This document shows positions 1 through 47,870 of a stretch of 50,929 nt of DNA, one piece after another. The translations under genes were made by a program, and so were the position numbers. A model generated the notes under the pieces. The model was not told where the DNA came from. It worked only from the letters and a program-made list of their open reading frames with translations, and did not search any database. Each line of letters starts with the position of its first letter. Within the stretch, counting starts at the first letter, position 1. This DNA comes from a virus: positions 1 through 50,929 of the IMG/VR virus record IMGVR_UViG_3300009103_000676. One strand, written 5' to 3'.

Positions 1-2015
1 ATAAATTTACCACCATCCATTTTAGTTATCTGTACAGAAAACGCTTCGTTTTGATTCATTAATGAATAGTAACCTGTTTGATTACCATACATCTTTTTAA
101 ATGTAGCAGGTTCTTTTTTCGCAATTAAGTCCATTACATATTCTCTTGGAGAAGTATCACTAGCTTTTAAATGCTTTTTCAACTCAGCATATTTTTTAGC
201 TTTTAATAAGTCAACAGACTTTTGGAACATCTGTTTATCCATACCACCTTTTGCTACTTTCTTTTGTAATTCAACAGCAGCATTTTCTTCTAATTCGTTT
301 TCTTCTTTAGGTACACAATTTGGTACTTCTTTACCATCTTTCTTTTTCATACCTATCATTTCATAATCTTTCCAACAAGGGTCTTTCTTGTCTTCTCCAA
401 CATCTTTTATTAAAAGTGTTTTAATACCTGCGTCAGATTTTAATCCAACTTCATCTTTGTATCTTCGTATTGCTTCTTTTTCATTTTTGCCTTCAACTTC
501 CCAAGTCTTTTTACTAGGGTGTGAAACTCTATAAACTTGTACACTTTCTTTAACTTCGTCTTTTTCTTTATCTGCTTTATCTTTTAAAAGTTTATGTGCT
601 AAACCAACCGTTAAAGGTACTTCACCTGTCTCTTTGTTAGGCATTGGTTTAACTGCTTTGTTCTTTTCGTTTTCTAATTTTGTTCTTAACTGATTAATTT
701 GACCTTGAGCAGCGATTAATTGTTTTTCTAAAGTGTCTGTATCTTTTTCTTTTGCAAGTTTAATTTTATCAACATCTTTTTCTTTAGTTTCTGTTGATGT
801 TTTATCTTTCATAGCTTCAATAGATTTTTTAGGTTCTTCTTTCTCCTCAACTACACCAGTTTTACCTGTTCTTAATTTAGCATCCAAAGGTGGATTGTAT
901 CTTCCCATTTTATCTATAGTGAAACCTTTTTTTCTTAACTTCTGTGCTTTGTTTTGAATATCTGATAAACTATCTCCACCTTCAAATCCATAATGTTTTC
1001 CATACTGACTATATGAAATCATATATGGTTGGATTTTTTCTTCTATTGGAGTTCTTTCGCCTGAAGTTTCTACTCCTGCAATGTTCCAAGCACTATCGTC
1101 CTGTTCTTTTGTTAGTACTCTTACATCATCGCCATACTTAGCAACAACTTGTTTGTGGATACTTTCTACATCTTTCGCACTATCAATTCTAACTTCTGAA
1201 CCATCTGCGTTAGCTTCTCCACCACCAGTTTTACCTTTAAACATATTAGCAATAGCTTTTGCTTGACTAGAATTCTTTGCCATATATTCTATGTACTCAG
1301 CATACTCTACAAACAACCACTCTTTGTTTTCAGTTTTTAAATGAGACCTAGTTGCCAATTGCATATCTAAAATCTTTTTCATATTACCTGATAGTTCAAT
1401 ACCATCTGGAATATCTTTTACTTTTAATCCGTGTTGTTTCGCCAAAGAAACCATATTATCTTTTTCTTTTTTATTAGCGAAACCTCTAATAGTTCCTTTA
1501 CCTTCTTCTACTTGTACAGCAGCATTAGCATTTTTTTCTTTAGTTGATTCTGTTAATTGTTCCCAAGTTTGTTCTTTAAAGGAAGATAATCTAACTCCTT
1601 TAGGTACTTGTATACCTTTCTTAATCATACGACTTAATGCCATAGTAGAAAGGAATGGAATATCTGCTTTGTATAATTTTGGTAGTTGTGAATTTGTTAT
1701 CTTGTCAAAGATATTTCTTAATTGGTTTGCTCTCGCAAGTGAAATCTTAGCACCTTTTAAACTAGCGTAATCTTGTTTAAGTTTAGCAATTTGTCCATCT
1801 GAAAATTCCCACAACATTGCTTCAGCAATGTCTTCTTCTCCAAGTATAGTTTTAACCGTTGAGAGAGGTAGTTTCATTTTCTTTGCTATTTCGCTTGCTG
1901 ATTTACCGTCAGCGAACATAGTAGCGATAGTTTTCATCTTGCCTTCGTCCAATGTTATATCATTAGCCCAGACTTCTTCCATTGCCTCTCGCATTGATTT
2001 TGTATATCTTGTCAT
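1..2015 (-). CDS. Large hypothetical phage protein, C-terminus outside window
   Basis: An uninterrupted reading frame of 671 codons starts at the ATG at 2015 and is still open at base 1, so the C-terminal part lies beyond the window. I checked the forward-strand triplets in this frame and found no stop. A GGGGA ribosome site lies just upstream, inside the end of the preceding gene. The N-terminus (MTRYTKSMREAMEEVW) is followed at about residues 25-50 by a helix-turn-helix-like stretch (GKSASEIAKKMKLPLSTVK). The middle is Lys/Glu-rich and probably coiled coil. Near residue 550 is a CWKDYEMIGMKKKDGKEVPNC block of a kind I recall from large marine T4-like phage proteins. It is the last gene seen in the left late block. 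I do not recognise a catalytic domain. A virion or packaged role is only inferred from the neighbours. Confidence 0.85.
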   Translation of the reverse strand, partial: MTRYTKSMREAMEEVWANDITLDEGKMKTIATMFADGKSASEIAKKMKLPLSTVKTILGEEDIAEAMLWEFSDGQIAKLKQDYASLKGAKISLARANQLRNIFDKITNSQLPKLYKADIPFLSTMALSRMIKKGIQVPKGVRLSSFKEQTWEQLTESTKEKNANAAVQVEEGKGTIRGFANKKEKDNMVSLAKQHGLKVKDIPDGIELSGNMKKILDMQLATRSHLKTENKEWLFVEYAEYIEYMAKNSSQAKAIANMFKGKTGGGEANADGSEVRIDSAKDVESIHKQVVAKYGDDVRVLTKEQDDSAWNIAGVETSGERTPIEEKIQPYMISYSQYGKHYGFEGGDSLSDIQNKAQKLRKKGFTIDKMGRYNPPLDAKLRTGKTGVVEEKEEPKKSIEAMKDKTSTETKEKDVDKIKLAKEKDTDTLEKQLIAAQGQINQLRTKLENEKNKAVKPMPNKETGEVPLTVGLAHKLLKDKADKEKDEVKESVQVYRVSHPSKKTWEVEGKNEKEAIRRYKDEVGLKSDAGIKTLLIKDVGEDKKDPCWKDYEMIGMKKKDGKEVPNCVPKEENELEENAAVELQKKVAKGGMDKQMFQKSVDLLKAKKYAELKKHLKASDTSPREYVMDLIAKKEPATFKKMYGNQTGYYSLMNQNEAFSVQITKMDGGKF

Positions 2016-2020
2016 ATTAT

Positions 2021-4159
2021 TTAATCCCCTTGCGAATTATTAAATTGTTTGAAAGATTGAACCTTTAAGCGTTCTTCCATCTTATTCGTTGCTTCTTCTA
2101 GTTCTTTCTCCCAATCTTCTCCGTATCTTGTCTTATATTTATCAATAGTCTCACTTGAAGCAGCCCAATTCTTTATGTCTTCTTTGTCTATTTTTTCTGC
2201 CGATTGTTCTGCTCTCGTCTTACTATCTACTGGTTTCTCACTTGGCGTCTCTCCAGGTGTAATTTCTTTAGTATGATTAGCGTAATCTTTGCCTATTTCA
2301 TACGATTCTTCTCGTTTTTTTATATCTTCATATGTCTTCTGTTTATTCATTTTGACTTCCGTTTCCGATACTGCTTCAAAACCATAATCAACATCTAGGT
2401 TGTGTTCGTGTAGTTTAACTTCATCTACATTACTAACTGGTAGACAATTCCATATCCAACATTTGTGTAAGTTAGATTCTTTATCTTCTAGTACAATATA
2501 GTTTGTACTTCTACGGATTACTTTACCTGTTACCTCTTGTATGGTATCATTTACAATATCATTTGTGTTAAATAATTGTTCACGGATATACAAGTCTCTA
2601 ATTTGCCATTGAGTAAATCTTTCTACGATTACTTTTTTCTTTGCTGTAGGATTAATATCAGCACTTGGAGCGTATGTTCCAAGTCCTGCACCTGTTGTAT
2701 TTTCTAGGTTCATTCCTTTTCTTACTAATTTAAATAGTCCATCTTTATCTCTATATGATACAGGTAGACCTCTTTTAAAACTTTGTAAATCGTTTTTGCT
2801 AGCGGCGTCTCGCATTTTACTTGCTGACATTCCCATAGCTCCTTCAGCGTCTGGATCTCTTTCACCAGCACTTACTACATTAATTTTATCAAACTTGTAA
2901 TTAGTTCCTCTTGCTTTTACTCCGTTATATTTTTTTAGAAGAGTATCAAATTCTCTTACTCGGTCACTTCCTACGACCATAGTTATTTGATTTGCTTTTC
3001 CATTTAGATTATTTAAAACTTCCATTGCTGTTCTAGCACCTGGGATTTGTTTTATCTTTGATGAGTGTCTAGGAAACATCTGTTTCATTATTCTCAACTT
3101 GTCAGTAATCTTTAATGGGTTTTTCTTTGCGTCTGTTGTTTTAGTAGGTATGATTAAGTAATCATTAGCACTAACACTTGCCACTTTATTAATAAGTTTT
3201 TCGTGTCCTATTGTAGGTGGATTAAATCTACCAAATGTAAATGCTATATGTTTTTTAGGTGAACCTACTGCTTCTTTAAGACTATCAATTTCGGCGTCTG
3301 TAACCTTGCCGTCATCTAAAATCTTTTTACATTTCTTATAAAATTTTAAGTAGTGATATTTTTCTAACATCTTATAGATTACATTTTTAGGTAATCTATT
3401 TTTAATACCATACTTTCTAATTTCATCTGGCGACATATCTTTATCAAACGCTGCTCTTCTATCTGCGTCAACATCATCGCCTATTTTTATTATGTCCTTT
3501 ATACTATCTTCTATCTCTTTAAGTTTCTTTTCTATTTTACTTTGTAAGTTTTCTATATCGTTAGGACCTAATTCTTTTAATTCGTCATAGTCAATTATAT
3601 CTCTTTTTAATTCTCCTTTGACTACATCTAATTCTTGTACTTTTCTATTGAAGTCTTTGATATAATCATTTACATTGAAAACAAAATCTGCTGGTCTCTT
3701 TATAAATTTATTTTTTCTTATATCAAAACTTGCGTCTGCCTTTTCTTGTTGGTCATCATATATTTTTGGATCCGCTATCATAAAATAGTTAATCGGATGC
3801 TTCGTACCTGGTATTAATTTACCTTGTACATTTTTTGGATTAGATGAAGATATAAACTTCATAACTAATCTTTCTCTTTCTGCTGGTCTATCTTTATCTT
3901 CAGGTATATCAAACAATACATTGATGTCCAAGTCTGCGTCATCACGGTATCTCTTTGTTAAGATAGAACCAATTAATCCTATTTTAATTACAGGATATTC
4001 TTTTGCAAAAACTTTTATTTGGTCTTCTATTTGTTTAACAACACTTGGTTTAAGTTTTGGATTCTTTGTATCAGCGTCATCAAATACACCAGGAGCATAT
4101 GTTCGTCTTGGTATATCTATGATACTTTCTTTTATAAAATTTTTAAATCTACTTAACAT
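2021..4159 (-). CDS. Fused polymerase-beta-type nucleotidyltransferase and NMNAT-like nucleotidyltransferase
   Basis: This 712-residue multidomain enzyme has two recognisable regions. Residues 58-85 carry GS(64-65) followed by DADLD (74-78), the GS...DxD metal-binding signature of polymerase-beta-type nucleotidyltransferases. Residues 303-460 look like a cytidylyltransferase/NMNAT Rossmann fold, with GRFNPPTIGH at 310-319 (an [H/T]xGH motif), VVGSDR near 396 and SASKMR at 445-450, the position of the ISSTxxR motif. The C-terminal 220 residues are charged and unassigned. The N-terminus MLSRFKNFIKES contains I-K-E at 9-11, matching the T4 gp21 cleavage rule. The gene overlaps the kinase upstream by 11 bases and belongs to the late block. 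NAD synthesis or salvage is a reasonable guess for the second domain. The substrate of the first domain is unknown. Confidence 0.8.
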   Translation of the reverse strand: MLSRFKNFIKESIIDIPRRTYAPGVFDDADTKNPKLKPSVVKQIEDQIKVFAKEYPVIKIGLIGSILTKRYRDDADLDINVLFDIPEDKDRPAERERLVMKFISSSNPKNVQGKLIPGTKHPINYFMIADPKIYDDQQEKADASFDIRKNKFIKRPADFVFNVNDYIKDFNRKVQELDVVKGELKRDIIDYDELKELGPNDIENLQSKIEKKLKEIEDSIKDIIKIGDDVDADRRAAFDKDMSPDEIRKYGIKNRLPKNVIYKMLEKYHYLKFYKKCKKILDDGKVTDAEIDSLKEAVGSPKKHIAFTFGRFNPPTIGHEKLINKVASVSANDYLIIPTKTTDAKKNPLKITDKLRIMKQMFPRHSSKIKQIPGARTAMEVLNNLNGKANQITMVVGSDRVREFDTLLKKYNGVKARGTNYKFDKINVVSAGERDPDAEGAMGMSASKMRDAASKNDLQSFKRGLPVSYRDKDGLFKLVRKGMNLENTTGAGLGTYAPSADINPTAKKKVIVERFTQWQIRDLYIREQLFNTNDIVNDTIQEVTGKVIRRSTNYIVLEDKESNLHKCWIWNCLPVSNVDEVKLHEHNLDVDYGFEAVSETEVKMNKQKTYEDIKKREESYEIGKDYANHTKEITPGETPSEKPVDSKTRAEQSAEKIDKEDIKNWAASSETIDKYKTRYGEDWEKELEEATNKMEERLKVQSFKQFNNSQGD

Positions 4160-4988
4160 TAAGTCCTCGTTGTTTTATAAGATTCATAAATGCTTTTGGG
4201 TCTTGTTGTTTTAATTTAAATAAAAATGGATTTGCACTATAAGGATTTGTCATATCTTTTCTAGCTTTAATATCTTTGTCAAGTTGTTTAATAGCATCCG
4301 CTGTAAGTTTTGCTAATGCTGTTTGTTTTTTAGTATCTAATTGTATTTGCATCCATCTTTTTGCTACTATACTTCTAACAGGTGCTCTTACTAATCCTCT
4401 AACTCTACCCCATAATTTATTTAATATATCTTCATTTGCATTATTATTATCTACTACAATAAAATTACTTCTACCAAAAGAAGTTTGAAATTTTCCAATA
4501 TTATTTTGTACGGTTTGCCAACTCTTTCTAGTAATATCTTCTGGCACTCTTCTAGTTCTAGTTCTATTTCTTTCTAACGCAACTTCTAAACTTGTATTAA
4601 CAAATATCATATAGCAATCATAACCTAACATTTGTAGTAATGATTTCTGTCTACTGATAATACTATAATCTCTTCCTGTTGCGTCAATAACAAGACCTAA
4701 TCTACCTTGAATATATAAATCCATTTGGTCGCCTGTAACCTTTTTTGCTTTTGCTCTTAATGGGTCTCTTAAAGCAGCTTCTTTATCAGGCATTTTTAAA
4801 CTTAATCCTGCCTTTGTTAAATATCTTTCAAATCTTGTATCTGAATTAACTAACTTCAAACCCATACCACCAGTTGACCTGTTGGTTACATAAGTCTTAC
4901 CACTACCAGGTCCACCTGCAAGGAAAAATGCCTTGAATATACCTGGGTCATAAACGCCTTCTTGTATTACTTGTTTAAATAATTTCAT
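4149..4988 (-). CDS. P-loop kinase (zeta-toxin / polynucleotide-kinase-like)
   Basis: The 279-residue protein has a Walker A motif GGPGSGKT at residues 25-32. It is followed by NSD near 49, an IDATGRD segment near 103 and an Arg-rich RNRTRTRRVPEDI stretch that could act as a phosphate-binding lid. This arrangement is typical of small P-loop kinases of the zeta-toxin and polynucleotide-kinase group. No toxin or antitoxin partner is visible. The N-terminus MKLFKQVIQEG carries I-Q-E at 8-10, resembling a gp21-cleaved capsid-targeting leader. The start codon overlaps the stop of the SET gene as ATGA. The neighbours (ligase-like protein, adenylate kinase, nucleotidyltransferase) suggest nucleic-acid end processing or nucleotide metabolism. 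The exact phosphate acceptor cannot be read from the sequence. Confidence 0.75.
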   Translation of the reverse strand: MKLFKQVIQEGVYDPGIFKAFFLAGGPGSGKTYVTNRSTGGMGLKLVNSDTRFERYLTKAGLSLKMPDKEAALRDPLRAKAKKVTGDQMDLYIQGRLGLVIDATGRDYSIISRQKSLLQMLGYDCYMIFVNTSLEVALERNRTRTRRVPEDITRKSWQTVQNNIGKFQTSFGRSNFIVVDNNNANEDILNKLWGRVRGLVRAPVRSIVAKRWMQIQLDTKKQTALAKLTADAIKQLDKDIKARKDMTNPYSANPFLFKLKQQDPKAFMNLIKQRGLNVK

Positions 4989-5272
4989 ACTTTATAAAAA
5001 GTGTACTTTAATGTTAACTCTTCTCCCTTTTTAATATCTCTTAATGTTTGTAGATACCATTTATTATCTACTTCAATCTTTTGACAATTTGGTTTCTCAC
5101 TATGATTAATAAAACCTCCTAATGGAGTTCTATACAATTCTCTTCCAATTTTGATATGACTTATACCTAAATCATCCATCTTGTCAAACTTTTTTGTAGC
5201 AAATAAACCTTGTTCGTGTATTTTGCTATCTTGTATTCTTAATCCATCTGGTAATGGTTTATATTTTTCCAT
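4985..5272 (-). CDS. Minimal SET-domain protein (possible protein lysine methyltransferase)
   Basis: At 95 residues this is shorter than most SET domains but keeps their landmarks in order: a GLFATKKF strand at 22-29, NHSEKPNC at 56-63 (the NHS-x-x-xNC cofactor/knot motif) and KKGEELTLKY at 81-90 with the terminal Tyr. SET proteins transfer a methyl group from S-adenosylmethionine to lysine. The target here is unknown, though a ribosomal, capsid or host DNA-binding protein is plausible. A longer frame would start at a TTG at 5275. I chose the ATG one codon downstream. The gene overlaps the end of adenylate kinase and ends with ATGA at the kinase gene. No post-SET cysteines are present. Confidence 0.72.
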   Translation of the reverse strand: MEKYKPLPDGLRIQDSKIHEQGLFATKKFDKMDDLGISHIKIGRELYRTPLGGFINHSEKPNCQKIEVDNKWYLQTLRDIKKGEELTLKYTFYKV

Positions 5273-5858
5273 CAATCTCTTTCATTATATCTTTAGCTAT
5301 ATCTCCTGCTTCTTTTCCTTCTGCTTTGATAGAAATAAAACCAGGTTTCTTTCTAAAGTGGTCTATCGCTGGACCAGTTTCTTTTTTATAGAGAGCAATC
5401 CTATCTGATATAATCTTTGGTGTATCATCTTTTCTTCCTCTCTTTGATAATCTTCTAATCACTTCTTCTTTTGAAACATCTAGGAATACAACTACATCAT
5501 AACCAATTCCTTCTCGTTCCATATCTCTAACTTGTTGCATATATCTAGGATAGCCATCCATAATATAACCTTTTTTAGCGTCAGGTTCTAATAATGCTTC
5601 CTTAATAAGTTTTAAAACTATTTCGTTTGGTGCAAATTGTCCTTTATCTAATAAGTTTTTAATTTTTTCTGCTTCTGCACCACCTTTATCTATCTCTTTT
5701 CTTAATAGACCACCTGGATAAATATGTTTTATTCCATATCGTCTAATCAAATATTCTGAATAGGTTGACTTACCACTTCCAGGTCCACCCATAATAATAA
5801 TTCTTGTTTGTTTGTCTTCAAGTAATTGTTGTTCGTAAAAATTTCTAAATGTTTTCAT
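5259..5858 (-). CDS. adk: Adenylate kinase-like nucleotide kinase
   Basis: The 199-residue protein follows the adenylate/UMP-CMP kinase plan. It has the P-loop GGPGSGKS (about 25-32), DGYPR (the usual DG[F/Y]PR NMP-binding motif) near 103, and RGRKDDT, the short lid with the conserved Arg and double Asp. The short lid is like eukaryotic AK1 and UMP-CMP kinases rather than the long zinc lid of many bacterial enzymes. It converts NMP to NDP with ATP. The first 14 residues (MKTFRNFYEQQLLE) precede the fold and end in L-L-E, a gp21-type cleavage sequence followed by Asp. The gene sits between a Cys-rich mini-gene and the SET gene. The nucleotide preference (AMP, UMP or CMP) is not determined. Confidence 0.85.
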   Translation of the reverse strand: MKTFRNFYEQQLLEDKQTRIIIMGGPGSGKSTYSEYLIRRYGIKHIYPGGLLRKEIDKGGAEAEKIKNLLDKGQFAPNEIVLKLIKEALLEPDAKKGYIMDGYPRYMQQVRDMEREGIGYDVVVFLDVSKEEVIRRLSKRGRKDDTPKIISDRIALYKKETGPAIDHFRKKPGFISIKAEGKEAGDIAKDIMKEIDGKI

Positions 5859-5993
5859 TTATTCTCCATTAAACTCATCTTCGTTAAAAGGTCGTTTCCC
5901 ACAACTACAATCATCACATACACACACGCCATATTCATCTGCGTGTAGTTCTTCGTTGCAATGACAATCGTGGTGACAATTTTTACACTTCAT
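5859..5993 (-). CDS. 44-residue cysteine-rich peptide, probable zinc knuckle
   Basis: This small frame (ATG at 5993, TAA at 5861-5859) encodes 44 residues with eight cysteines at 3, 6, 10, 12, 24, 26, 29 and 31 and several histidines. The paired CxxC/CxC clusters suggest two metal sites. The middle and end are acidic. Its ATG overlaps the stop of the preceding gene as TAATG, and its stop abuts the adenylate kinase start with no spare sequence, so it fills the gap exactly as a real gene would. The function is unknown. It could be a zinc-binding adaptor for a neighbouring enzyme. Confidence 0.7.
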   Translation of the reverse strand: MKCKNCHHDCHCNEELHADEYGVCVCDDCSCGKRPFNEDEFNGE

Positions 5994-6277
5994 TAACTTT
6001 TAACCTTACTACTTGCTCTCCATTGATAACAACTCCAGTATCTTGCTTTCCATTTAGGTCCTGGATTATCACAATTATGTCTTGCTCTAAATGACGCTCT
6101 TCTGTCTTCGCTATCTCTTTTAATTTCCATATTAGGATCGCCAAAAGTTACCTTAACTACTTTACCTGATCCGTTCTTAACATAAACACCAAACTTTTTT
6201 GAATTGCCTGAAGGCAATCTAAAAGGTTTATTTAATGTCTTTTTTACTTCTGCTGATTTTTCTTCGTATGTTTTCAT
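5993..6277 (-). CDS. Conserved small basic phage protein with FRARH...WSCYQW block
   Basis: The protein has 94 residues. The frame could be extended to a TTG at 6292, but the ATG at 6277 has a good AAAAGGA ribosome site and overlaps the upstream stop as TAATG, so I prefer it. The second half contains VTFGDPNMEIKRD and then RASFRARHNCDNPGPKWKAR followed by YWSCYQW. I recall this block from many marine phage proteins, where it occurs alone or inside larger proteins, but I cannot name a function. Two Cys and one His in that block could bind a metal. The leader MKTYEEKSAE resembles the N-terminal leaders of the neighbouring enzymes. It lies between the ligase-like gene and the Cys-rich peptide. 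Confidence 0.75.
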   Translation of the reverse strand: MKTYEEKSAEVKKTLNKPFRLPSGNSKKFGVYVKNGSGKVVKVTFGDPNMEIKRDSEDRRASFRARHNCDNPGPKWKARYWSCYQWRASSKVKS

Positions 6278-7494
6278 TATCCTTTTACCCAATCTTTAGC
6301 GATAGTAAAGTTTGCTCTACTAAATTCTAATCTATCTACTAACTTAACTACATTACCTATTCTATCAGTAGCAACAAATCCTTCTGGTGCTGTAACCTTA
6401 TAACCACTATTAGTTCTAATAAAATGTCCAACACTTTGTATCTGTGCTAACTTCTGTAATAATATATTCTTACAATTTTGTAATGTTATATAACTTGCTA
6501 TTGCCATATATAATGCTCTACTATTTCTATCTATAAACTTTAAATTTATTTCTTTTGCCTGTTTATATTTTGCTTTACCTTTTTCAGTTTTCTTACTATC
6601 TATTTCTGCGTCTATAAAGTTTTCGTAATAACTTCTAAAATTCTGTTGTAGTACTTTAACACTACCTATTGTACCTCTACTATTTCTTATAATAGAATTG
6701 AAATAACTTTTTAATCTAAACCCTACTGATAATTGGTCTCTACTATCAAACTCATTTAATAATGGAGCAGCTTTTCCTAAACTACCTTCTGCCATTCTTA
6801 ACATTGCATTAAATCTAGCAATCTCACCTTTACTAAAACTAGCACTACCACTAGCGTCTTTATATTGTGCCGATGGTATCCATACTGACCCACTTTTAAC
6901 ACCTCTTACATATCCATAAGACGCACTTAAACTATCCATAGTCTTACCACTATAAGATGTATGAAAAACTATTCCCATTCTTGCTCTTGCAATTTGTCTT
7001 CCCACAGGACTATCAACTGGCATTGCATATGTAATTGTATTAGGAGTAAAAGTAATCATACTTTGTCCATCTATACTTGTAATTTTTTTATCTTCTCCTG
7101 TGAACAAACAATCACCTTGTAGTATTCCTCTAATACCAAGTTTCTTTAGTTCTCTTAAAGCAACTTGTAATTTAGAACCAACACCACCTGGATGATTTCT
7201 TGCTATGTCTGCTGAAGTGTAATTTATTTTAGGAGTTTTATTGAATACAGATTTGGTGCCGACAAAGAATTTGCCATTTTCAGGATTGATTCCACATATA
7301 ATAGCAGGTGCACCATCCCACTTAACGGTTACATTAACTTTCTTGCTAGTGCTAGCAGATAACATCTGTCGCAAAGATTTTAAAAACGCTATAGCGTTTC
7401 TGCCACCTGTGGCACCGTCATTTATTATACTATCTTCTAAATGCTCTAGGTGTGTATTTGTTCCCGAGCTAGAATATCCTTTAAAACTAAACAT
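6277..7494 (-). CDS. Ligase-like nucleotidyltransferase candidate
   Basis: This 405-residue protein belongs to a family I recall from T4-like marine phages without a known function. Residues 58-61 are KWDG in the context VNVTVKWDGAPAI, which looks like motif I (KxDG, the lysine that carries AMP) of ATP-dependent DNA/RNA ligases and capping enzymes. LQGDCLF at 125-131 resembles motif III (LDGEL), and RMGIVFHT near 177 sits where motif IV (EGIVFK) would be, although the Glu is missing. These matches are short, so catalytic ligase activity is an inference. A late-type box lies 67 bases upstream, and the gene heads the block with the P-loop kinase and the nucleotidyltransferase. A template role in virion assembly cannot be excluded. 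Confidence 0.6.
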   Translation of the reverse strand: MFSFKGYSSSGTNTHLEHLEDSIINDGATGGRNAIAFLKSLRQMLSASTSKKVNVTVKWDGAPAIICGINPENGKFFVGTKSVFNKTPKINYTSADIARNHPGGVGSKLQVALRELKKLGIRGILQGDCLFTGEDKKITSIDGQSMITFTPNTITYAMPVDSPVGRQIARARMGIVFHTSYSGKTMDSLSASYGYVRGVKSGSVWIPSAQYKDASGSASFSKGEIARFNAMLRMAEGSLGKAAPLLNEFDSRDQLSVGFRLKSYFNSIIRNSRGTIGSVKVLQQNFRSYYENFIDAEIDSKKTEKGKAKYKQAKEINLKFIDRNSRALYMAIASYITLQNCKNILLQKLAQIQSVGHFIRTNSGYKVTAPEGFVATDRIGNVVKLVDRLEFSRANFTIAKDWVKG

Positions 7495-7561: not shown

Positions 7562-7569
7562 TATTTATA
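7562..7569 (-). promoter_or_regulatory. T4-type late promoter box
   Basis: The minus strand reads TATAAATA, the T4 late -10 consensus recognised by gp55. It lies directly after the stop of the 462-residue gene and 67 bases before the ligase-like gene. Confidence 0.6.
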
Positions 7570-7570
7570 T

Positions 7571-8959
7571 CTAATATACTTTGCATTTCTTACCCCATTG
7601 TTCTTTTAATATCTCTTTAAATTCAGGTGTTAATGTAGCTTGAAATTGAGGTTGTCCTGTAAATGAACCTTTATATCTTAATAGCATATTTAAAACATTT
7701 AATTTACCTTTTTTAAGATTAAAAAAAACTCTAGCTCCATCTGATTTTTTATTGGCTGCTTCATCTAACTCCATTACATATTTTGAATTACTTTTATTTA
7801 AAGCACTCAATCCACACATTACGGTATATAATCCTTTTGCTGGTATATGACCTATTTTAGGATTTCTATCTTTATCTATATCTCCTACAGCAGTTATCAA
7901 AGAAAAAGCAAAAGTGTGTTCATCTAACTCTTTATATAATTTATGTTTTAAAATTAAATTTAATAAAGCAGCGGCAAACTGCTCACTATACTTGTTTATA
8001 ACTGGAACCATAGCGGAATAAACAGAATCTTTACTCGCTACTTTCCTATTGACAAACGCTCTCATACTTATCTTTTCATTTTTCAGTTCGCCAGGTTTAA
8101 ATTCTCTATATTTTTTATTTGATTTATCAAAAATTTGAAAAACATTTGGGTCTGTTTGTTTGGTTGGGTTTATTAAATCAATATCACCTTTACCTTTTAT
8201 GTTTATTAAGAACATTGGATCTTTAGATTTAAATACATTTTTAACATTTCCTGACAACTTAATTTTCATAAGTTGCTCATCATTAGCAGGTAAAGTACCT
8301 TTTTTAATTTTTAGATATTTTGCTTTTACTGCTTCTCTAACAATCCTAGCAAAATACTTTGTTCTTGCCTGTTCAACTTGCTTTTTAATTTGAGCCATTG
8401 TTTTTAATTCTTTAGGAGAATCAGATTGTAGTACACTATCAAATGCTTTGTTAATTAAAGGAGGATCCCCACTTGTTACCAATGGTTTTTTCTTTAACGA
8501 AACTCCATAAAAGGATAGTCCTTTAGGATTTCTCCATTGAATAATTAAATCGGATGAGTTGTAAGATTGAAATCCATATGCCGCTATTTGAAATTTTTTA
8601 ACTTCTTCAGGCCAACTATCTCCTGTTAAGAAAACTTTTATAGGAATTTGTGAAGCAGTAATAGGTGTACCAGATTCCCTTGACCTTACTGGTGCCCATT
8701 CTCTAATAGAATTGGCAGCAGAAATGCCTTGAGCAGCTGCTATTAAAAAATCTTTATCATTAATATCAAATGCTTTTAAAAATTTGTCTTTTGTACCATC
8801 GGCATAGACAACTTTATTACTTTTAGCTATCTTTTCACCTTCTTTTAGAAATTTTATTAATCCGTTAGCGTCTTTAGAATATTTGAGTAAGTCGCTAGGA
8901 CTCATTAACATCGCTACGGATGCCATTATTTCTGATGGTTCTACTCCAATTTTTGCCAT
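7571..8959 (-). CDS. Conserved hypothetical phage protein, late expressed
   Basis: The protein is 462 residues and basic, with no recognised catalytic motif. The N-terminal third mentions a MLMSPSDLLKYSKDANGLIKFLK helix set. The middle contains WRNPKGLSFYGVSLKKKP and a Lys-rich linker. The last 120 residues include the segment GLYTVMCGLSALNKSNSK. The gene has an AGGAGA ribosome site eight bases before the ATG and its own TATAAATA late box 20 bases upstream, just beyond the tRNA. This timing argues for a virion, packaging or packaged protein. I cannot assign a function, and a nuclease-like or structural role are both possible. Confidence 0.8.
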   Translation of the reverse strand: MAKIGVEPSEIMASVAMLMSPSDLLKYSKDANGLIKFLKEGEKIAKSNKVVYADGTKDKFLKAFDINDKDFLIAAAQGISAANSIREWAPVRSRESGTPITASQIPIKVFLTGDSWPEEVKKFQIAAYGFQSYNSSDLIIQWRNPKGLSFYGVSLKKKPLVTSGDPPLINKAFDSVLQSDSPKELKTMAQIKKQVEQARTKYFARIVREAVKAKYLKIKKGTLPANDEQLMKIKLSGNVKNVFKSKDPMFLINIKGKGDIDLINPTKQTDPNVFQIFDKSNKKYREFKPGELKNEKISMRAFVNRKVASKDSVYSAMVPVINKYSEQFAAALLNLILKHKLYKELDEHTFAFSLITAVGDIDKDRNPKIGHIPAKGLYTVMCGLSALNKSNSKYVMELDEAANKKSDGARVFFNLKKGKLNVLNMLLRYKGSFTGQPQFQATLTPEFKEILKEQWGKKCKVY

Positions 8960-8978
8960 ATATTGTTTCTCCTAACAA

Positions 8979-8986
8979 TATTTATA
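8979..8986 (-). promoter_or_regulatory. T4-type late promoter box abutting a tRNA
   Basis: TATAAATA on the minus strand begins at the base immediately after the encoded CCA end of the tRNA and ends 20 bases before the start of the 462-residue gene. Tight packing of tRNA end and promoter suggests the late block starts here. Confidence 0.65.
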
Positions 8987-9062
8987 TGGTGCCCTTTACT
9001 GGACTTGAACCAATAACCTACTGATTACAAATCAGTTGCTCTACCAATTGAGCTAAAAGGGC
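8987..9062 (-). tRNA. tRNA-Thr (anticodon UGU), CCA encoded
   Basis: Read on the minus strand this is a complete 76-base cloverleaf. It has a 7-bp acceptor stem GCCCTTT/AAAGGGC, a D arm GCTC/GAGC, an anticodon stem ACTGA/TCAGT with loop TTTGTAA (anticodon TGT, U33 present), a 5-base variable region, a T arm ATTGG/CCAGT with TTCAAGT loop, discriminator A and a genome-encoded CCA. It reads ACA and probably other ACN threonine codons. It lies between the small gene downstream of gp41 and the late block. Confidence 0.95.
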
Positions 9063-9071
9063 AGAAAGGAC

Positions 9072-9329
9072 TTATTGAACATCACAAAGAAAGTGTGGAA
9101 TACCTCCATTAGGTTCCCATACTCTATGTTTATTTTGAAATCTAACTAACGCTCTAGCGTCTTTCTCAAAAAAGAAATCTTTTACAATAACATTGGTTGG
9201 TTTCTCGGTTACTCTCCAATATATTTTTCCTTTTTTCTTCACCATACTTTTAATATAATGTAGTTTTTCACCTTTTTCTAAAGGTCTGGATTGTATTTGT
9301 TTAAGAGGTTTGTTGTTTCGTCTAGGCAT
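9072..9329 (-). CDS. Small basic hypothetical protein downstream of gp41
   Basis: The 85-residue basic protein starts MPRRNNKPLKQIQSRPLEKG. A longer frame reaches 9374 inside gp41, but the ATG at 9329 follows the gp41 stop (TAA) by one base and is the natural coupled start. The body, with KGKIYWRVTEKP and FFFEKDARALVRFQNKHRVWEPNGG, looks like a small beta-rich fold with basic surface, consistent with nucleic-acid or ribosome binding. I do not recognise the family. It is the last gene before the tRNA. Confidence 0.7.
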   Translation of the reverse strand: MPRRNNKPLKQIQSRPLEKGEKLHYIKSMVKKKGKIYWRVTEKPTNVIVKDFFFEKDARALVRFQNKHRVWEPNGGIPHFLCDVQ

Positions 9330-9330
9330 A

Positions 9331-10695
9331 TTAAACTTTGAAGTCAGAAAATTTATCGTACGGATCCACTTCAACTTTTTTCTCCTGGTTGGCGTCTACT
9401 ATGTTTTGTGCTTTTTGTTCTACATCATACAATCTCATCTTACTTCTATCAACGCCGATGATAAAACTACGATTAATTGCTGGGTCGCTATATCTATTCT
9501 TTAATTGCTTAACCTTCATCTGATTTAATGCGTCTAGTTCTTCACTAGACATTAAAGCAAACATAAAGTCAGCAGTAGCAGGTAGACCAAAACTTTCTGA
9601 AGTATCTTCTAAACCTATGTCTGTTGATACGAAACCAGACCTTGTTGTTTGTGTTGCTGTAAATATAGGTAATTTAAACTCAACAGCAAGACCTCTTAAT
9701 TCTTCTGCGATTGCTTTGATATAGAAATAAGATGATATATTACCACCTTTAAATCTACTTGAAGCACATATATTTAAATAATCTATAAACAATACATCTG
9801 GTTTAAAACTTTTCTTTAATGCAAGTTCATTTAATAATGCTTTGAAGTGTCCACTATGAGCAGACGCTGTTGGATATTCTTTAATAATTAATTTACCAGG
9901 ACCTCTTTTCTTTAATCTTTCTATTCGGTCATCGTACATCTGTTTAGGTAATGCGTGTAAATCATCGGTGGTTACATCTAATAAGTTTGCGTCTATTCTT
10001 TCAGCAATTCTTTCTTCTGCCATTTCTAAAGTAATGTATAAAACATTTTTACCTTCTAGCAAACTTGAAGAAGCAAGGTGACACATAAACAAAGATTTAC
10101 CTACACCTGTTCCTGCAAGACAAACATTAAGAGTCTTCTGTGGAACACCACCTTTAGTTATTCTATTAAAATATTGTAAGTCAAATGGTAATCTTAATTC
10201 TTTACGATGGTAATAATCAAATCTGTCATCTGCATCCCCAATATAATCGTGCCCGATATGATTATCAAAAGACACAGCAAGAGCTTCAGATAAAATTGAA
10301 GGAATGGCCTCTGGAGTTCTTTTCTTGTCTTTTCCATCCAAGATTTTAATGCCGTTAAGTACTGCATTGTTAACCGCCTTATCTTTACAGAATCGCTCCG
10401 TAGTGTCAAACAACCATTGTATATCATTTTCACTCGGAGTTAATCCATTAATTGTTGTCTTAATAGCTTTGTATTCTTCCTCGTTAATATCTTTGCGATT
10501 GTTTAATTCTATTATCAAGGTCTCTTTGGTCGGAAGATTATTATATTTATTTACAAAATCTTCTATACAAGCAAATATAATTTTGTCAGACCTTGTACCA
10601 AAGTATTCATCTTTTAAAAATGGTAATACTTTTCTAGTATATTCTTCATTGAATATTAAATTTGTTAATATTGTGTCTTCAATTCTATTTGTCAT
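9331..10695 (-). CDS. 41: Replicative DNA helicase gp41 (DnaB-like)
   Basis: The 454-residue protein is the T4 gp41/DnaB-type hexameric helicase that unwinds DNA 5'-3' at the fork and works with the primase. The RecA-like domain has Walker A GTGVGKS near 195, the KNVLYITLEMAEERIAERI segment typical of DnaB helicases, Walker B VLFIDYLN near 300, and a Gln/Thr sensor ATQTTRSG near 345. The length is close to the 475 residues of T4 gp41. The gene overlaps the 105-residue gene upstream by 11 bases, and uvsX lies just beyond, preserving the T4 order uvsX-40-41. Confidence 0.95.
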   Translation of the reverse strand: MTNRIEDTILTNLIFNEEYTRKVLPFLKDEYFGTRSDKIIFACIEDFVNKYNNLPTKETLIIELNNRKDINEEEYKAIKTTINGLTPSENDIQWLFDTTERFCKDKAVNNAVLNGIKILDGKDKKRTPEAIPSILSEALAVSFDNHIGHDYIGDADDRFDYYHRKELRLPFDLQYFNRITKGGVPQKTLNVCLAGTGVGKSLFMCHLASSSLLEGKNVLYITLEMAEERIAERIDANLLDVTTDDLHALPKQMYDDRIERLKKRGPGKLIIKEYPTASAHSGHFKALLNELALKKSFKPDVLFIDYLNICASSRFKGGNISSYFYIKAIAEELRGLAVEFKLPIFTATQTTRSGFVSTDIGLEDTSESFGLPATADFMFALMSSEELDALNQMKVKQLKNRYSDPAINRSFIIGVDRSKMRLYDVEQKAQNIVDANQEKKVEVDPYDKFSDFKV

Positions 10696-11002
10696 CTAAT
10701 AATGTTCCGTTTTTCAGTTTTTCTTCCATAATCTCTATCAGTATATCACCAATATAATTTATAAAACCTGGTTGGTCTAAATCTAAATCTAGTTCTTCTG
10801 GTTTCTTTAATAAAGTCCATTCAAATTGCAATGGCATTTTGCCATTGTCTAATGGTTCCTTACTAAATTGTACCTTACCATATCTGTAAATAACATCTTT
10901 GTATTTACCTTCAACGATTTTTATACAACTAAAATCGTCTCCAGGTCTTTGAGCAAAGGTGTATCTTTTATCCGTAGAGGAATTGTTTTTTTGCTTGTTC
11001 AT
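10685..11002 (-). CDS. Hypothetical protein in the gene 40 position
   Basis: The 105-residue protein lies between uvsX and gene 41. In T4 that position holds gene 40, but I cannot confirm homology by sequence. It is acidic at its C-terminus ([23 protein letters not shown]) with a beta-rich middle ([17 protein letters not shown]). It overlaps the end of uvsX by 35 bases and the start of gp41 by 11 bases, so it is translated as part of that operon. I have no functional assignment. Confidence 0.8.
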
Positions 11003-11984
11003 CTATCTTGTCTAATACTTCTTTTGTAAAATACTTTTCAGGATTATCATTGATTGCTTTACCAAATACTTTAGTTCCGTCTGGCATTTCATACCTAGTG
11101 GATACTTTTTTAAATATACCTGCTTCTTCAGCAATAGCTACAAGTCCGTAATACTTATCTAAACCTTTTTGATAAGTTAACATTACATCAATCATAGCAT
11201 TTTCTTTTGTTAATCTACTTTTATAATTTTTACAATGAATAATATTACCGACAACTTCCGTGCCGTCTTTCACTTTTCTTTTTCCAAGATAAATTATTGA
11301 TGAGGCAGCGTATTTAAGACCACTTCCGCCACCCATTTCTTTTTGTGGGAACATTGAACCTATTACATCGTAAGTATGATTGGTCATAATCATAGGTATA
11401 TTTGCTTTACCTAGTTTCAATGTTAATACTCTAAAGGTTGACTTCACTATTTGAGACCTTGTCATATCTCTAGTCTCTTTACCTTCTGCTGTATCTGTCA
11501 TTTCTTTAGTTGTGGATAACATACCCAAACTATCTAATACAAACATTATAGGTTTTCTTTTGTCTTCTGGACTCTCCAGATACTTGTCAACTATTTTAAT
11601 TGATTGTGTTCTAAATTCTTGTACGGTTGAAACTGGTACTACTACAAATCTTTTACTATCAATACCTCTATCTTCAATCATATTTTTAGATACAGCACTT
11701 TCACTTTCAAAGTAGATAACTCCTGCGTCTTTGTTATCATCTAAAAAGTGTTTGCATATTCCTAATGCAAAGAAAGTTTTACCTGTAGCGGCCTCACCTG
11801 CAATAGCAGTTATTTTATTACCAGGCATTCCGCCATATATACTTCCTGATAATAGAGCATTAAGAGAATAGCAACCTGTATCAACAAAACTTGATACATC
11901 GCCAGCGTCAACTCCTTCACTTGCTAATGTGGCATATTCGTTGCCAGTTTCTTTTATAATGTCTTTTAAAAAATCATTTGTCAT
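10968..11984 (-). CDS. uvsX: UvsX RecA-like recombinase
   Basis: The 338-residue protein is the phage strand-exchange protein for recombination-dependent replication and repair. Visible motifs are Walker A GEAATGKT at about 63-70, Walker B MFVLDSLG near 150, and the loop region [16 protein letters not shown] that is typical of UvsX/RecA DNA-binding loop 2. The size is slightly below T4 UvsX (391). Its partners UvsY and UvsW are also in this window. A GGAG site lies before the start, and a sigma70 promoter lies directly upstream. Confidence 0.95.
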
Positions 11985-19966: not shown

Positions 19967-21431
19967 TAGGCGGCAATCTCTTACTTAATACGAAAGTCCT
20001 ACTAGGATTTACGCTAGCGTGAAACTGCCTAATCATATCTCTATTTAACAAGACATCCGAACCTGACCTTGGTCTTTGGTCTAGTCCAAATTCTATATCT
20101 TTATAAGTAAACCCATTGAAAGTCATATCTAACAATACGGTTTTTCTTATTTCGCTTGGTTCATCACCAGCGTTTGCTCTAAAAACTCTACTCTCTCCGT
20201 GAATTGGTTTAGTATATGTTTTCTTATTATACTTCCAACTTACCGTTTTACCTTTTATCTTAATATCTTCTGCGTGTAATGAACAAGCTTTAGCTCCATT
20301 ACCTGTATCTAACTTGGCTCTTATCTTACCAATGTCTTCTAATTCTATTGTCTCTAACCAACCTGTTTCTATAATTGATTGTCTATCCCAATTACTTCTA
20401 TCAGAAATATATTTAACAAAGTTTTTAACTAATTGTTTACCAGTAATTGCACCTCCAGGATTTGGTCCTTCAAGGTCTTTATATGCGTAACCTTCATAAT
20501 CAGCACCAGTACCAGGAGAACCATTGACTTCAAGTACATAGTACTTACCATCAACAATAATATGGTCTACTCCAACTACATATGCTTTACTAGCTCTACT
20601 AGCTTTTAAAATAATTTCTATTTCATCATCATTTAATTTATAAGGTACTGCCTTAGCACCTCTATGTGTATTAGTTCTAAAATCAAAAGATGATTGTATT
20701 CTTTTTGTACTAGCAAATATCTTATTATCTGCTACAAAAGTTCTTATATCAAATTTAACAGGCATAAATTCTTGTATTAATAATTCTGCTTCGTGTTTCC
20801 ATAGTGATTGAATAGTAGATACAAGCGACTCATAACTATCACATTTAACAACTCCGATACCTTGCGTACCTGTTAATGTTTTTAATACTACTGGAAACTT
20901 ACCACCTATTAGTTTTACTGCGTCATCTATATTTTTTTCGTTAGATACGAAAGCAGTTCTAGGTGTTGGTATTGCAAACTTTTCAAATAATAATGCTGTT
21001 GTTAATTTATTATTACAAGTTAACATTGAGTTTCTTGTATTAATCATAAACGAACCAGAGTTTTGAAAAGCAGATATGATTGAAAGTCCTGCTTCATCTT
21101 CAACTGCACCTGCTCTAGTAATACAAATGGTGTCTCTACCAATAAATGTATGTTCAGTATCTTTACCATCATAGTTATAGATGGTTAAAGTATTCTTTTC
21201 TTCGTCTTTACCTGTTATGATTGCGTGTCTAGTTTCAATAACTATACACTTGATTTTCAATTCTTCGCAAGTCTCAGCAATCAGACCAACGGTTAATTCC
21301 TTTTTCTCCTTACCACCAACTTTTCTTTTTTTGATGTTCGGATGAGTTTTGGTAACTACCGCTATCTGTATAGTTCTATCAGAACCTTTTTTTGCTTCGG
21401 TTATGAAATCTTTGAAATTTGATACTTGCAT
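19953..21431 (-). CDS. RimK-like ATP-grasp ligase fused to RimB-like retropepsin domain
   Basis: This is a 492-residue fusion. Residues about 100-340 are an ATP-grasp fold with FPVVLKTLTGTQGIGVVKC and VLEVNGSPG, typical of RimK, which adds glutamates to ribosomal protein bS6. Residues about 355-492 match the RimB/zinc-protease family with KLDTGNGAKACSLHA, an aspartic-protease-like DTG motif. RimB trims glutamate tails in Pseudomonas. The N-terminus MQVSNFKDFITEA carries I-T-E at 10-12, a gp21-type cleavage site, so the enzyme may be packaged. It sits between regA and the Sm-like gene, in a translation-control neighbourhood. The substrate is unproven, and another protein could be the target. 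Confidence 0.85.
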   Translation of the reverse strand: MQVSNFKDFITEAKKGSDRTIQIAVVTKTHPNIKKRKVGGKEKKELTVGLIAETCEELKIKCIVIETRHAIITGKDEEKNTLTIYNYDGKDTEHTFIGRDTICITRAGAVEDEAGLSIISAFQNSGSFMINTRNSMLTCNNKLTTALLFEKFAIPTPRTAFVSNEKNIDDAVKLIGGKFPVVLKTLTGTQGIGVVKCDSYESLVSTIQSLWKHEAELLIQEFMPVKFDIRTFVADNKIFASTKRIQSSFDFRTNTHRGAKAVPYKLNDDEIEIILKASRASKAYVVGVDHIIVDGKYYVLEVNGSPGTGADYEGYAYKDLEGPNPGGAITGKQLVKNFVKYISDRSNWDRQSIIETGWLETIELEDIGKIRAKLDTGNGAKACSLHAEDIKIKGKTVSWKYNKKTYTKPIHGESRVFRANAGDEPSEIRKTVLLDMTFNGFTYKDIEFGLDQRPRSGSDVLLNRDMIRQFHASVNPSRTFVLSKRLPPIDKD

Positions 21432-43906: not shown

Positions 43907-44536
43907 TTATGTAGTAGGAACCTTACTAGAAGTTTTTCCAGGTGTAGCAAACTCATAGTAAGAATATTTAAAATTAACCGTAGAAGTTATATAGTTAATA
44001 TCCTGTGCTTGTTGTGTAAAACTAGCACCTGTCATTGATACAGGAAACAAATCTATAAATCTAACTTCTTTTATTACATTATTTTTAGCTGATAAAATTG
44101 ATAGTGTAGCGTCTGATAGAGCAGTACCCATAGGTGTAGCAGGTTGTTCTTTATTTCTTCTACTACCTAATAGATTAACTTCTTTTCCTTGATTAGGAAA
44201 TCTATCTCTTCCAGCAGAAACAAGATTAGCAAAATCTTTATGGTCAATAGGTATTCCTAGTCCTCTTAACCAATTGTATAATTCTTCAAAATTATCAAAC
44301 TTCTCATCTACCATATATGTAAGTACTAAATCTCCAAAATCAAGTTTATCTCCAGGTATTGGAATATCTCTCAAAGCAGTATTTTGTGTAGCACTAGACA
44401 TTTGCAAACCAGGTATATTAATCTCGGTGCAAAAGTATTCTACTTTAGGAAGTTTTGTAATTTTAAACCTAAACTGCGCTGGTGAAGCGTAATCAAGTTG
44501 CGTGGGTTGTCTTGTTATAGCGTTTGTATCAGTCAT
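43907..44536 (-). CDS. 19: Tail tube-like protein (gp19 family)
   Basis: The 209-residue protein has the tube-fold pattern of T4-like gp19: FRFKITKLPKVEYFCTEINIPG, a hydrophobic-polar strand set, then GDLVLTYMVDEKFDNFEELY and a C-terminal STVNFKYSYYEFA. It is longer than T4 gp19 (163). A related tail-tube initiator or terminator of the same fold cannot be excluded. It has its own late box and no Shine-Dalgarno site that I can see. Confidence 0.75.
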   Translation of the reverse strand: MTDTNAITRQPTQLDYASPAQFRFKITKLPKVEYFCTEINIPGLQMSSATQNTALRDIPIPGDKLDFGDLVLTYMVDEKFDNFEELYNWLRGLGIPIDHKDFANLVSAGRDRFPNQGKEVNLLGSRRNKEQPATPMGTALSDATLSILSAKNNVIKEVRFIDLFPVSMTGASFTQQAQDINYITSTVNFKYSYYEFATPGKTSSKVPTT

Positions 44537-45996: not shown

Positions 45997-47157
45997 TTAT
46001 TTTACAGACAACTTAATGTCTTTAGTTTTACTAATAGCGGTAGTATAAGCAGCCATTGCATTAGACAAATCTTTTGAATCTACTTCATTTGATTGTCCAG
46101 CTACCGCATTATCTACTTCGCTGTCAGAATTCGCTTCTTTTTTATTTCCAAAATATGATTCTTTAATAGTCTCACATTTTTTCTTAAAAGTTTCAGCGTC
46201 GGAATACTCAACTTCTTCTGTAAGTTTAGCAAATTTTTCTTTAGAAGTATCTGCTAAGTCAGAAGCAACATCAGCTAAAATGTCAGCTCTCTCAAGCATA
46301 TTGCTTTTCTTATTCAATTCAACATTTTTTCCGATTTCTTCGTTAAGTTTCTTCTCCAGTTCCTCAATCTTTGAGGCCTGGTCTTCTAACACATCATATT
46401 TTTCATCAGGTACATCAATATAGTGGTCTTCAAAAAGTTTTTTCAGACCGTTAATGAAGTCCTCAGCAATCTCTCCCTTGATACCTTTTTCAATAGCAAG
46501 TTCGTTTTCTTTCATCCACTCATTGACAACATAGTTCAAATAATTGTCTACCTTTTCAACAAGTTCTGATTTTTGCTTAGTACTTTCAGTTTCAAATTTT
46601 TTATTATAATCTGCTTCCATTGATTCTTCTATCTCTCTAACTTTAGATTTGATAGCAGCTTCAAATATAGTAGCAGCTTTGGCTTTAAATTCTTCTGACA
46701 AGTCTTTTTCTCCAGAGGTTAAAGCGTCAATGTGTTCTTTTACATCAACATCTTTTGCTTTCTGGTCATCTTTTTCCTCAGACTTGACTTCATCATCTTT
46801 AGATACTTTAACTTCAGCGTCTTTAGATTCTTTTTTGTCGTCTTTCTTATCTAGGAATTTTTTTAGACCGTCAGGCATTTCTCCCTCGGAAATCTTCTTG
46901 CCTTCAGAATCAGTTTCTTTCTCTTCACCTTTAAGAGTAGGCATAGCGTCAGCTTTACCTTGATTCTTTTGAGGTGCTTGTCCAGAAACTTCTTTTGTGC
47001 TTGCGTTAGCTTTAGGATTTTCGTCTGTAGGTTTAACTACAGCTTTACCTAAATCCTCAGCGTCATTTTTCAATGGCGTTGGCTCAGCGGCTACAGCGTT
47101 CTTTTTAGGAGCGTCTGCTACCGTGTTTTCACTAACACTTTTTTCTGTTTCGGCCAT
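45997..47157 (-). CDS. 22: Prohead scaffold gp22
   Basis: The 386-residue protein is highly charged (Lys/Glu/Asp) and predicted mostly coiled coil, the hallmark of gp22. Its position between gp21 and gp23 settles the call. It is larger than T4 gp22 (269), with an extended disordered N-terminal half (GEKKETDSEGKKISEGEMP-like). It forms the inner core and is degraded by gp21. AAGGAG precedes its ATG; a late box is 52 bases upstream. Confidence 0.9.
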   Translation of the reverse strand: MAETEKSVSENTVADAPKKNAVAAEPTPLKNDAEDLGKAVVKPTDENPKANASTKEVSGQAPQKNQGKADAMPTLKGEEKETDSEGKKISEGEMPDGLKKFLDKKDDKKESKDAEVKVSKDDEVKSEEKDDQKAKDVDVKEHIDALTSGEKDLSEEFKAKAATIFEAAIKSKVREIEESMEADYNKKFETESTKQKSELVEKVDNYLNYVVNEWMKENELAIEKGIKGEIAEDFINGLKKLFEDHYIDVPDEKYDVLEDQASKIEELEKKLNEEIGKNVELNKKSNMLERADILADVASDLADTSKEKFAKLTEEVEYSDAETFKKKCETIKESYFGNKKEANSDSEVDNAVAGQSNEVDSKDLSNAMAAYTTAISKTKDIKLSVK

Positions 47158-47216: not shown

Positions 47217-47870
47217 CTAATACAATCCTTTAAGGAACGATTCAAAGACTTCCGCCTTTGCTTCTGCGATTTTTAGTCGTTTTGCCTCTTGGATGTACTC
47301 TTTATATTCTTCTAGCTCTTTTTGTTTAATGACACCATTATCCCATATCCACTCTTTTCCTTCCATAATTCCTTCTACGAAAGCGTCTGGAGCTGATGGA
47401 TCTGCAACAATGTCAGCGGCAGTAGCAAGATAAAAGTCTTGTCCGACCTGTGCCTCACCGTTTCTACCTCTTTGTAATGAACCCATACCACGACTAGATA
47501 CGCCTAATTTAGCGCCTTCATCTATAAGATTTTTTACAATCTTTCCGTATGGAGTATCCATAACTTTTGCTTCTCCGATGAAGTTATTTCCATCTGGATA
47601 TAGTTTAGTTATCATATGTGATACTCTTTCCAAGTTTACCGTTGGTCCGTCAGGATGTCCTAACTCGCCAAAAGCTCTCTTCTGTTCAACAAATTCTCTA
47701 TTATATCTACTTACTTCTTTTGATAAAGTTTCCTTTGGATAGACTCTACCGTTTCTATTTTTAATTTCTGATTGTAAGAATACTCCACGGATTTTGTAGT
47801 TTTTGCCACCTTGTCCGTTATCTTCTTTAATGTATTCTACATTATCTATTGCTTCTGTTATGAGTTTCAT
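47217..47870 (-). CDS. 21: Prohead protease gp21
   Basis: The 217-residue protein has FGELGHPDGPTVNLERVSHM (catalytic His) and LGVSSRGMGSLQ (catalytic Ser), the signature of T4 gp21-type proteases; NRNGRVYPKETL is also conserved. It cuts scaffold, capsid and internal proteins after [L/I]-x-E. Its own N-terminus MKLITEA also contains I-T-E. A strong AAGGAAAGAGAG site and late box are upstream. Confidence 0.95.
   Translation of the reverse strand: MKLITEAIDNVEYIKEDNGQGGKNYKIRGVFLQSEIKNRNGRVYPKETLSKEVSRYNREFVEQKRAFGELGHPDGPTVNLERVSHMITKLYPDGNNFIGEAKVMDTPYGKIVKNLIDEGAKLGVSSRGMGSLQRGRNGEAQVGQDFYLATAADIVADPSAPDAFVEGIMEGKEWIWDNGVIKQKELEEYKEYIQEAKRLKIAEAKAEVFESFLKGLY

Follow-up and report, generated by a model that had tools for sequence, protein, structure and literature searches.

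The IMG/VR virus record IMGVR_UViG_3300009103_000676 was analysed over its whole length of 50,929 bases (the window). It is probably a fragment of a genome, and its gene content and nearest references, Pelagibacter phage HTVC008M and Methylophilales phage Melnitz, place it by sequence among the T4-like marine myoviruses. Four of its enzymes, a nucleotidyltransferase (NT), a P-loop kinase (PK), an adenylate kinase (AK) and an ATP-grasp ligase, begin with a short stretch ending in L/I-x-E (Table 1). In T4 the prohead protease gp21 cuts after this same motif (PMC9026906), and the stretches resemble the capsid-targeting sequence (CTS) of T4 internal head proteins. Here we weigh the reading that they are CTS-like leaders and that the enzymes are virion cargo.

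Leader-bearing enzymes and head genes of the window

The initial annotation had described three such N-termini, MLSRFKNFIKE-S (NT), MKLFKQVIQE-G (PK) and MKTFRNFYEQQLLE-D (AK), and the sequences and their positions, all on the minus strand, are confirmed; each leader ends in [L/I]xE, and the residue after it is small or acidic. All three enzymes do carry a leader, although three was an undercount: the ATP-grasp ligase is a fourth, and its leader is the clearest in the window. The folds had also been called unrelated, which is not so for all of them, PK and AK both being P-loop kinases. The PF01467 (CTP_transf_like) match of NT scores 29.4 bits against a curated cut-off of 21; an AlphaFold model of this protein had a mean predicted local distance difference test (pLDDT) score of 49 and was discarded. 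AK has the P-loop GGPGSGKS, its kinase proper begins at about residue 16-19, and its predicted structure matches adenylate kinases in Foldseek.

Table 1. Positions in the window of the leader-bearing enzymes, their predicted cleavage sites, head-assembly genes, late promoter boxes and neighbouring genes
Feature	Positions	Strand	Basis or remark
NT: Pol-beta-like nucleotidyltransferase (N-terminal) + NMNAT/cytidylyltransferase-like domain, 712 residues	2021..4159	-	PF01467 E=1e-6; PF01909 (NTP_transf_2) weak; phrog_395 cytidyltransferase E=4e-66
NT leader, residues 1-11, MLSRFKNFIKE; predicted gp21 cut before Ser12	4127..4159	-	sequence and homologues
PK: P-loop kinase, AAA_33/zeta-toxin-like, 279 residues	4149..4988	-	PF13671 E=2e-11; PF06414 E=3e-9
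PK leader, residues 1-10, MKLFKQVIQE; predicted cut before Gly11	4959..4988	-	sequence and homologues
AK: adenylate kinase, 199 residues	5259..5858	-	ADK PF00406 E=1.3e-37, above curated cut-off
AK leader, residues 1-14, MKTFRNFYEQQLLE; predicted cut before Asp15	5817..5858	-	sequence and alignment
RimK-like ATP-grasp ligase + C-terminal Zn_protease-like domain, 492 residues	19953..21431	-	PF08443 E=5e-36; PF05618 E=2e-6
ATP-grasp leader, residues 1-12, MQVSNFKDFITE; predicted cut before Ala13	21396..21431	-	pattern scan and homologues
gp21 prohead protease, Peptidase_S77	47217..47870	-	PF03420 E=1.9e-36; phrog_207
gp22 prohead scaffold	45997..47157	-	phrog_237 E=8e-82
gp23 Glu52 codon	45820..45822	-	AQFMAE|AAPAN aligns with T4 SFLTE|AEI (alignment of gp23 proteins)
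Late promoter box TATAAATA	7562..7569	-	68 nucleotides upstream of the DUF6267 gene, first in block
Late promoter box TATAAATA	8979..8986	-	20 nucleotides upstream of the open reading frame 7571-8959
DUF6267 protein	6277..7494	-	PF19782 E=3e-123
Downstream open reading frame, cut by contig end	3..2015	-	N-terminus MTRYTKSMRE|A

Genetic analyses of T4 assigned leader residues 4 and 7 to targeting and residues 8 and 10 to processing (PMC9026906), giving a register of Y4, F7, I8 and E10. PK reproduces this register exactly (F4, V7, I8, E10), NT keeps its spacing shifted by one residue (F5, F8, I9, E11) and the ATP-grasp ligase shifted by two (F6, F9, I10, E12). In AK, F4 and F7 are kept while the cut motif, L12/E14, comes four residues later than in T4, as a 4-residue insertion, which makes AK the loosest fit and the weakest case among the leader-bearing enzymes. 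The same type of start, seen in all three by the initial annotation, holds only loosely for AK, with its LLE shifted by four.

The window also encodes the machinery that such leaders would need. Its gp21 has the N-terminus MKLITE|A, its gp22 contains multiple internal [LIM]xE sites, and its gp23 has a candidate site facing that of the T4 major head protein, whose propeptide is 65 residues long (PMC9026906). Because this site lies opposite the T4 one, a gp21-type cleavage specificity as in T4 would be expected for the window phage.

NT, PK and AK lie in a tightly packed block that, as had been noted from the sequence, is downstream of late boxes (TATAAATA at 8979 and 7562). The late promoter of T4 and KVP40 is TATAAATA and that of S-PM2 is NATAAATA (PMC2984593). 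The window has six copies of TATAAATA, every one of them on the coding strand and 6-68 nucleotides before a gene start, and two of them precede gp21 and gp22; by chance, 12.8 copies scattered over both strands would be expected. That the box is rarer than expected and found at promoter positions only suggests that it is avoided elsewhere. Expression of the leader-bearing enzymes of the block would, from this arrangement, be late and alongside the head genes; directly upstream of the ATP-grasp gene no TATAAATA box was found.

Conservation and frequency of the leader

Homologues were fetched from the viral metagenomes of IMG/VR, with scan patterns that excluded the leader for NT and included it for PK and AK, a mild bias for the latter two. 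Lack of enrichment of the leader among homologues had been named in the initial annotation as an argument against targeting, and this is not what we observed. Most homologous leaders are 5-14 residues long and nearly every residue in them varies, yet among distinct NT leaders the Glu preceding the predicted cut (P1) is present in 34/34, with I/F/V/L at P3 and S/A at P1' in the same 34/34, and among distinct PK leaders Glu at P1, L/I at P3 and Gly at P1' each occur in 35/35. Position by position, M1, F4 and E10 are invariant in the PK alignment, and F4 and E14 are the sole invariant leader residues of AK, where L12 is nearly so and the alignment spans the 4-residue indel. Homologues of the ATP-grasp ligase retain the leader as well (FSDFLSE, FKDYLTE, FSQFITE), two of them being only 27-28% identical in the body of the protein; a tblastn search with an invented N-terminal peptide for the ATP-grasp protein gave no match and was uninformative.

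Is the conserved Glu simply part of the enzyme? For AK this appears not to be so: Glu14 lies outside the enzyme fold as judged from alignment and model, because solved adenylate kinases align to AK only from query residue 14-20 on and because the AlphaFold model has low confidence in the leader (pLDDT 55 at residues 1-10, most of the core exceeding 90).

In some relatives the enzymes are fused, and fused homologues retain [ILV]xE at their domain junctions, followed by S or G. PK, a PAP2-type phosphatase (PF01569) and NT form a single protein of 1195 residues in some of them (L012 and L088); the motif reads IIQE|G at its start and, at the two junctions in order, GIRE|S and VNLQE|S. Others (L126, L127 and L138) have an AK-PK fusion of about 406 residues with FRQYLNE|G at the internal junction; they had been considered as examples of a leaderless AK, in which the leader would be dispensable, and were rejected as such once recognised as fusions. 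Phage Atu_ph07, which encodes an S77 protease, also has a fusion with the Glu kept at its internal domains (VNIQE|SIIDIPR for NT, EVTE|GVNDKHIFKA for PK). The fused enzymes resemble a polyprotein that the prohead protease would cut.

How often does such a motif occur at N-termini by chance? The tight pattern [FYL]xx[FYV][LIMF]xE matched 3/64 N-termini of the window and 0/271 internal Met controls. In a pool of 14 genomes or fragments that encode gp21, it matched 29/2804 N-termini versus 23/10121 internal Met positions (p=9e-8), or 18/2804 versus 6/10121 (p=4e-8) when the next residue had to be A/G/S/D; in another four genomes, where no S77 protease was detected, the counts were 2/572 and 4/1850 (not significant). 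The motif alone yields false positives: a looser pattern (any hydrophobic residue at the first position) discriminated weakly, picking UvsX (10968-11984), and the tighter one was used instead. The pattern fixed before the proteome comparison described below also finds T4 IPII, IPIII, Alt and gp24.

Conservation of this kind could reflect an N-terminal helix with some other job, such as anchoring in a complex or a membrane of the infected cell, in enzymes that are not packaged. AK residues 4-15 are helical in the AlphaFold model, and in relatives the genes lie next to each other or are fused, as would be expected of a metabolic complex. A helix of this sort leaves unexplained, however, the invariant [LIV]xE with a small residue at variable spacing and the link to virion proteins in S-CREM2, and we consider it unlikely. 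We also find it hard to credit that the Glu serves a structural role where each domain begins, the leader being unselected and its likeness to T4 coincidental, although this has some plausibility for NT and PK. The Glu residues of these two are indeed kept inside fusions such as that of Atu_ph07, but that phage has an S77 protease, so the site may be cut there too; moreover, the Glu of AK is outside the kinase fold and at a variable distance from it, the hydrophobic P3 is kept as well, and the N-terminal enrichment is difficult to reconcile with chance.

Other genes in and around the block carry fainter traces of the motif or none. The leader of the DUF6267 protein is degenerate in the window (MFSFKGYSSSGTNTHLEH), whereas HTVC008M (MYNDLLVE|D) and Melnitz (INFSKYITE|D) have it in intact form. 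The start of the downstream open reading frame (3..2015) resembles the leader motif without being conserved, relatives having MTRYRQTMAE|A and MTRYNKTMSE|A and one of them (G001) no Glu. The same operon includes a small SET-domain protein without a leader (PF00856; 4985-5275, minus strand). Read by eye, an unlisted short Cys/His-rich open reading frame of ~44 residues lies between p99 and AK (~5860-5991, minus strand).

Leader-bearing proteins in published virion proteomes

The S-CREM2 virion proteome comprises 52 proteins (PMC10665884). A leader pattern fixed before it was compared with this list matches 9/219 S-CREM2 proteins, of which five are in the virion proteome (Fisher p=0.037 for all genes, p=0.0026 for non-structural genes); a tighter pattern chosen afterwards gives p=0.0032 and 0.00017, respectively. 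The virion proteins with a leader are a SAM hydrolase (MKDFDSFLEE), gp13 (MKDLHSFLTE), an APH-like kinase (MKRFDAFLTE), gp136 (MQTFSMFFSE) and a cytidylyltransferase (MKNFSSFLTE). S-CREM2 (OR473000) also has a virion-reported Cas9-like protein with RFASFMAE|A near its N-terminus (7704-10313), the gene of which sits among those of virion-detected non-structural proteins (gp12-gp15, with gp6 nearby).

The cytidylyltransferase family, whose members are homologous to the catalytic C-terminal part of the window NT, has also been detected in virions of S-SM1 (PMC3037559; the protein was assigned to T4-GC190 by homology), S-SZBM1 (PMC9146016) and S-SCSM1 (PMC9602691), and the leaders there are MKKFSAFLNE|A, MRFRQFIIE|A and MKSFLQFLKE|A, respectively. 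Among these homologues the stretch between leader and catalytic domain is poorly conserved, and the leader persists. In S-SCSM1 (MK867354) the block around the NMNAT gene (86357-93306) consists mostly of annotated virion proteins (SSCSM1_89-93, 95, 97); as in the window, it is flanked by the replication genes and nrdA. The prediction that the enzymes are found in virions thus has support from homologues of NT in four phages.

Might the enzymes be packaged with the leader uncut, or their presence in virions of relatives be carry-over of abundant late proteins? Some proteins are represented by few peptides (three for the S-CREM2 cytidylyltransferase by mass spectrometry; PMC10665884), and in T4 an Asp at position 10 of the leader blocks cutting and leaves targeting intact (PMC9026906), but we regard this as improbable, as the same non-structural family, each time with a leader, occurs in four independent cyanophage proteomes, and carry-over would not favour leader-bearing proteins.

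Several observations weigh against capsid targeting. PK and AK were reported in none of the virion proteomes we found, and SSCSM1_30 is not among the proteins of S-SCSM1 that are marked as belonging to the virion, despite its perfect leader (MKTFKQFMSE|S). An NMNAT-like protein is reported in the S-CBWM1 virion, yet we found no S77 protease in the S-CBWM1 genome. The motif is absent from the NT of HTVC008M (MKTLKELLRKKVG), and the leader from the NT relatives of P-HM1 and S-PM2. The direct comparison of gp21-encoding with gp21-lacking phages gave p=0.08 and, with too few controls, was dropped as a sole test. Lastly, the proteome authors themselves state that carry-over after CsCl purification cannot be excluded.

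Two further proteins with leaders deserve mention. A ~106-residue protein with the perfect leader MK[TS]FK[QS]F[ML]SE|SVNISGDFNG is conserved in S-SCSM1 (44215-44535) and S-SZBM1 (122311-122628); it is unreported in the accessible virion data of either phage and may be a core protein degraded in maturation. KVP40 (AY283928) encodes a leader-bearing protein, MKNLKSFMEE (156073-157191), with a weak PARP-domain match below the curated cut-off, possibly an Alt-like ADP-ribosyltransferase.

Enzymes as probable virion cargo and comparison with known systems

Taking these points together, we put the probability that T4-type targeting by a CTS-like leader packages the window enzymes at roughly three in four; the invariant Glu and hydrophobic P3, the gp21 and gp23 site in the window and, with the greatest weight, the leader-bearing enzymes in published virions all support the proposal of the initial annotation. 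On this reading NT, PK, AK and the ATP-grasp ligase would be internal head proteins, each bound to the prohead core through the hydrophobic residues of its 10-14-residue leader (positions 4 and 7 in T4). During head maturation gp21 would cut after [L/I]xE, and the freed enzyme would stay with the DNA inside the capsid and then be injected, like T4 Alt and the IP proteins. Trimming and injection would follow by analogy with T4. Similarly tagged enzymes in purified particles of related phages lead us to conclude that T4-like marine phages probably inject ready-made enzymes along with their DNA. Their role is a matter for speculation; they might control nucleotide/NAD pools at an early stage or modify components of the host.

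A broader proposal, which we hold tentatively and with some doubt, is that marine T4-like phages have a modular kit of injected enzymes, each addressed by a CTS (nucleotide/NAD-type enzymes, the ATP-grasp ligase, PAP2 phosphatase, SAM hydrolase, kinase and even Cas9), and that some lineages make it as a polyprotein, such as PK-PAP2-NT or AK-PK, to be cut at [ILV]xE in the head. If capsid targeting is correct, abundant ocean phages would deliver metabolic enzymes at time zero, beyond merely encoding them. Cyanophage proteomes have repeatedly held puzzling enzymes that their authors could not distinguish from carry-over, and the leader would be a sequence rule separating cargo from contamination, one that predicts exact mature N-termini and makes cargo predictable from metagenomes. 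Natural CTS sequences of this kind might also serve for loading proteins into phage heads.

Proteins with a CTS are themselves a known device of T4, and a review of that phage suggested the CTS as a general means of loading varied proteins (PMC9026906). What is new, as far as we have checked, is its systematic use on metabolic enzymes of marine T4-like phages and the agreement with virion proteomes. The available parts of the cyanophage proteome papers do not mention the leader, and a full-text literature search for "capsid targeting" and "cyanophage" returned, within the literature covered, only a T4 review that does not take the subject up; an earlier description may exist.

The closest likeness is to the CTS of T4 IPII and IPIII (MKTYQEFIAE|A), shared features being the N-terminal position, a length of 10-14 residues, aromatic or hydrophobic residues at the targeting positions or, in NT and the ATP-grasp ligase, one or two residues further on, a terminal [L/I]xE, gp21 in the genome and late boxes, whereas the window leaders precede recognisable enzymes, those of T4 small basic proteins, and the AK version is four residues longer. 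T4 Alt (MELITELFDE), a virion ADP-ribosyltransferase, is an enzyme with an N-terminal gp21-type propeptide; it is carried in the head and, once injected, acts on the host (PMC9026906), a fate that the window enzymes may share by analogy, although their folds (nucleotidyltransferase, P-loop kinase, adenylate kinase, ATP-grasp) are different. The virion-associated cytidylyltransferase/NMNAT family of cyanophages (T4-GC190, phrog_395) has the same type of leader in S-SM1, Syn9, S-SCSM1, S-SZBM1, S-CREM2 and Melnitz; the window NT has an additional N-terminal Pol-beta-like domain. More distantly, the ejection proteins of phiKZ and SPN3US are head proteins too, which a gp21-related protease trims after Glu and which are ejected (PMC9026906), albeit with another motif and another branch of the protease.

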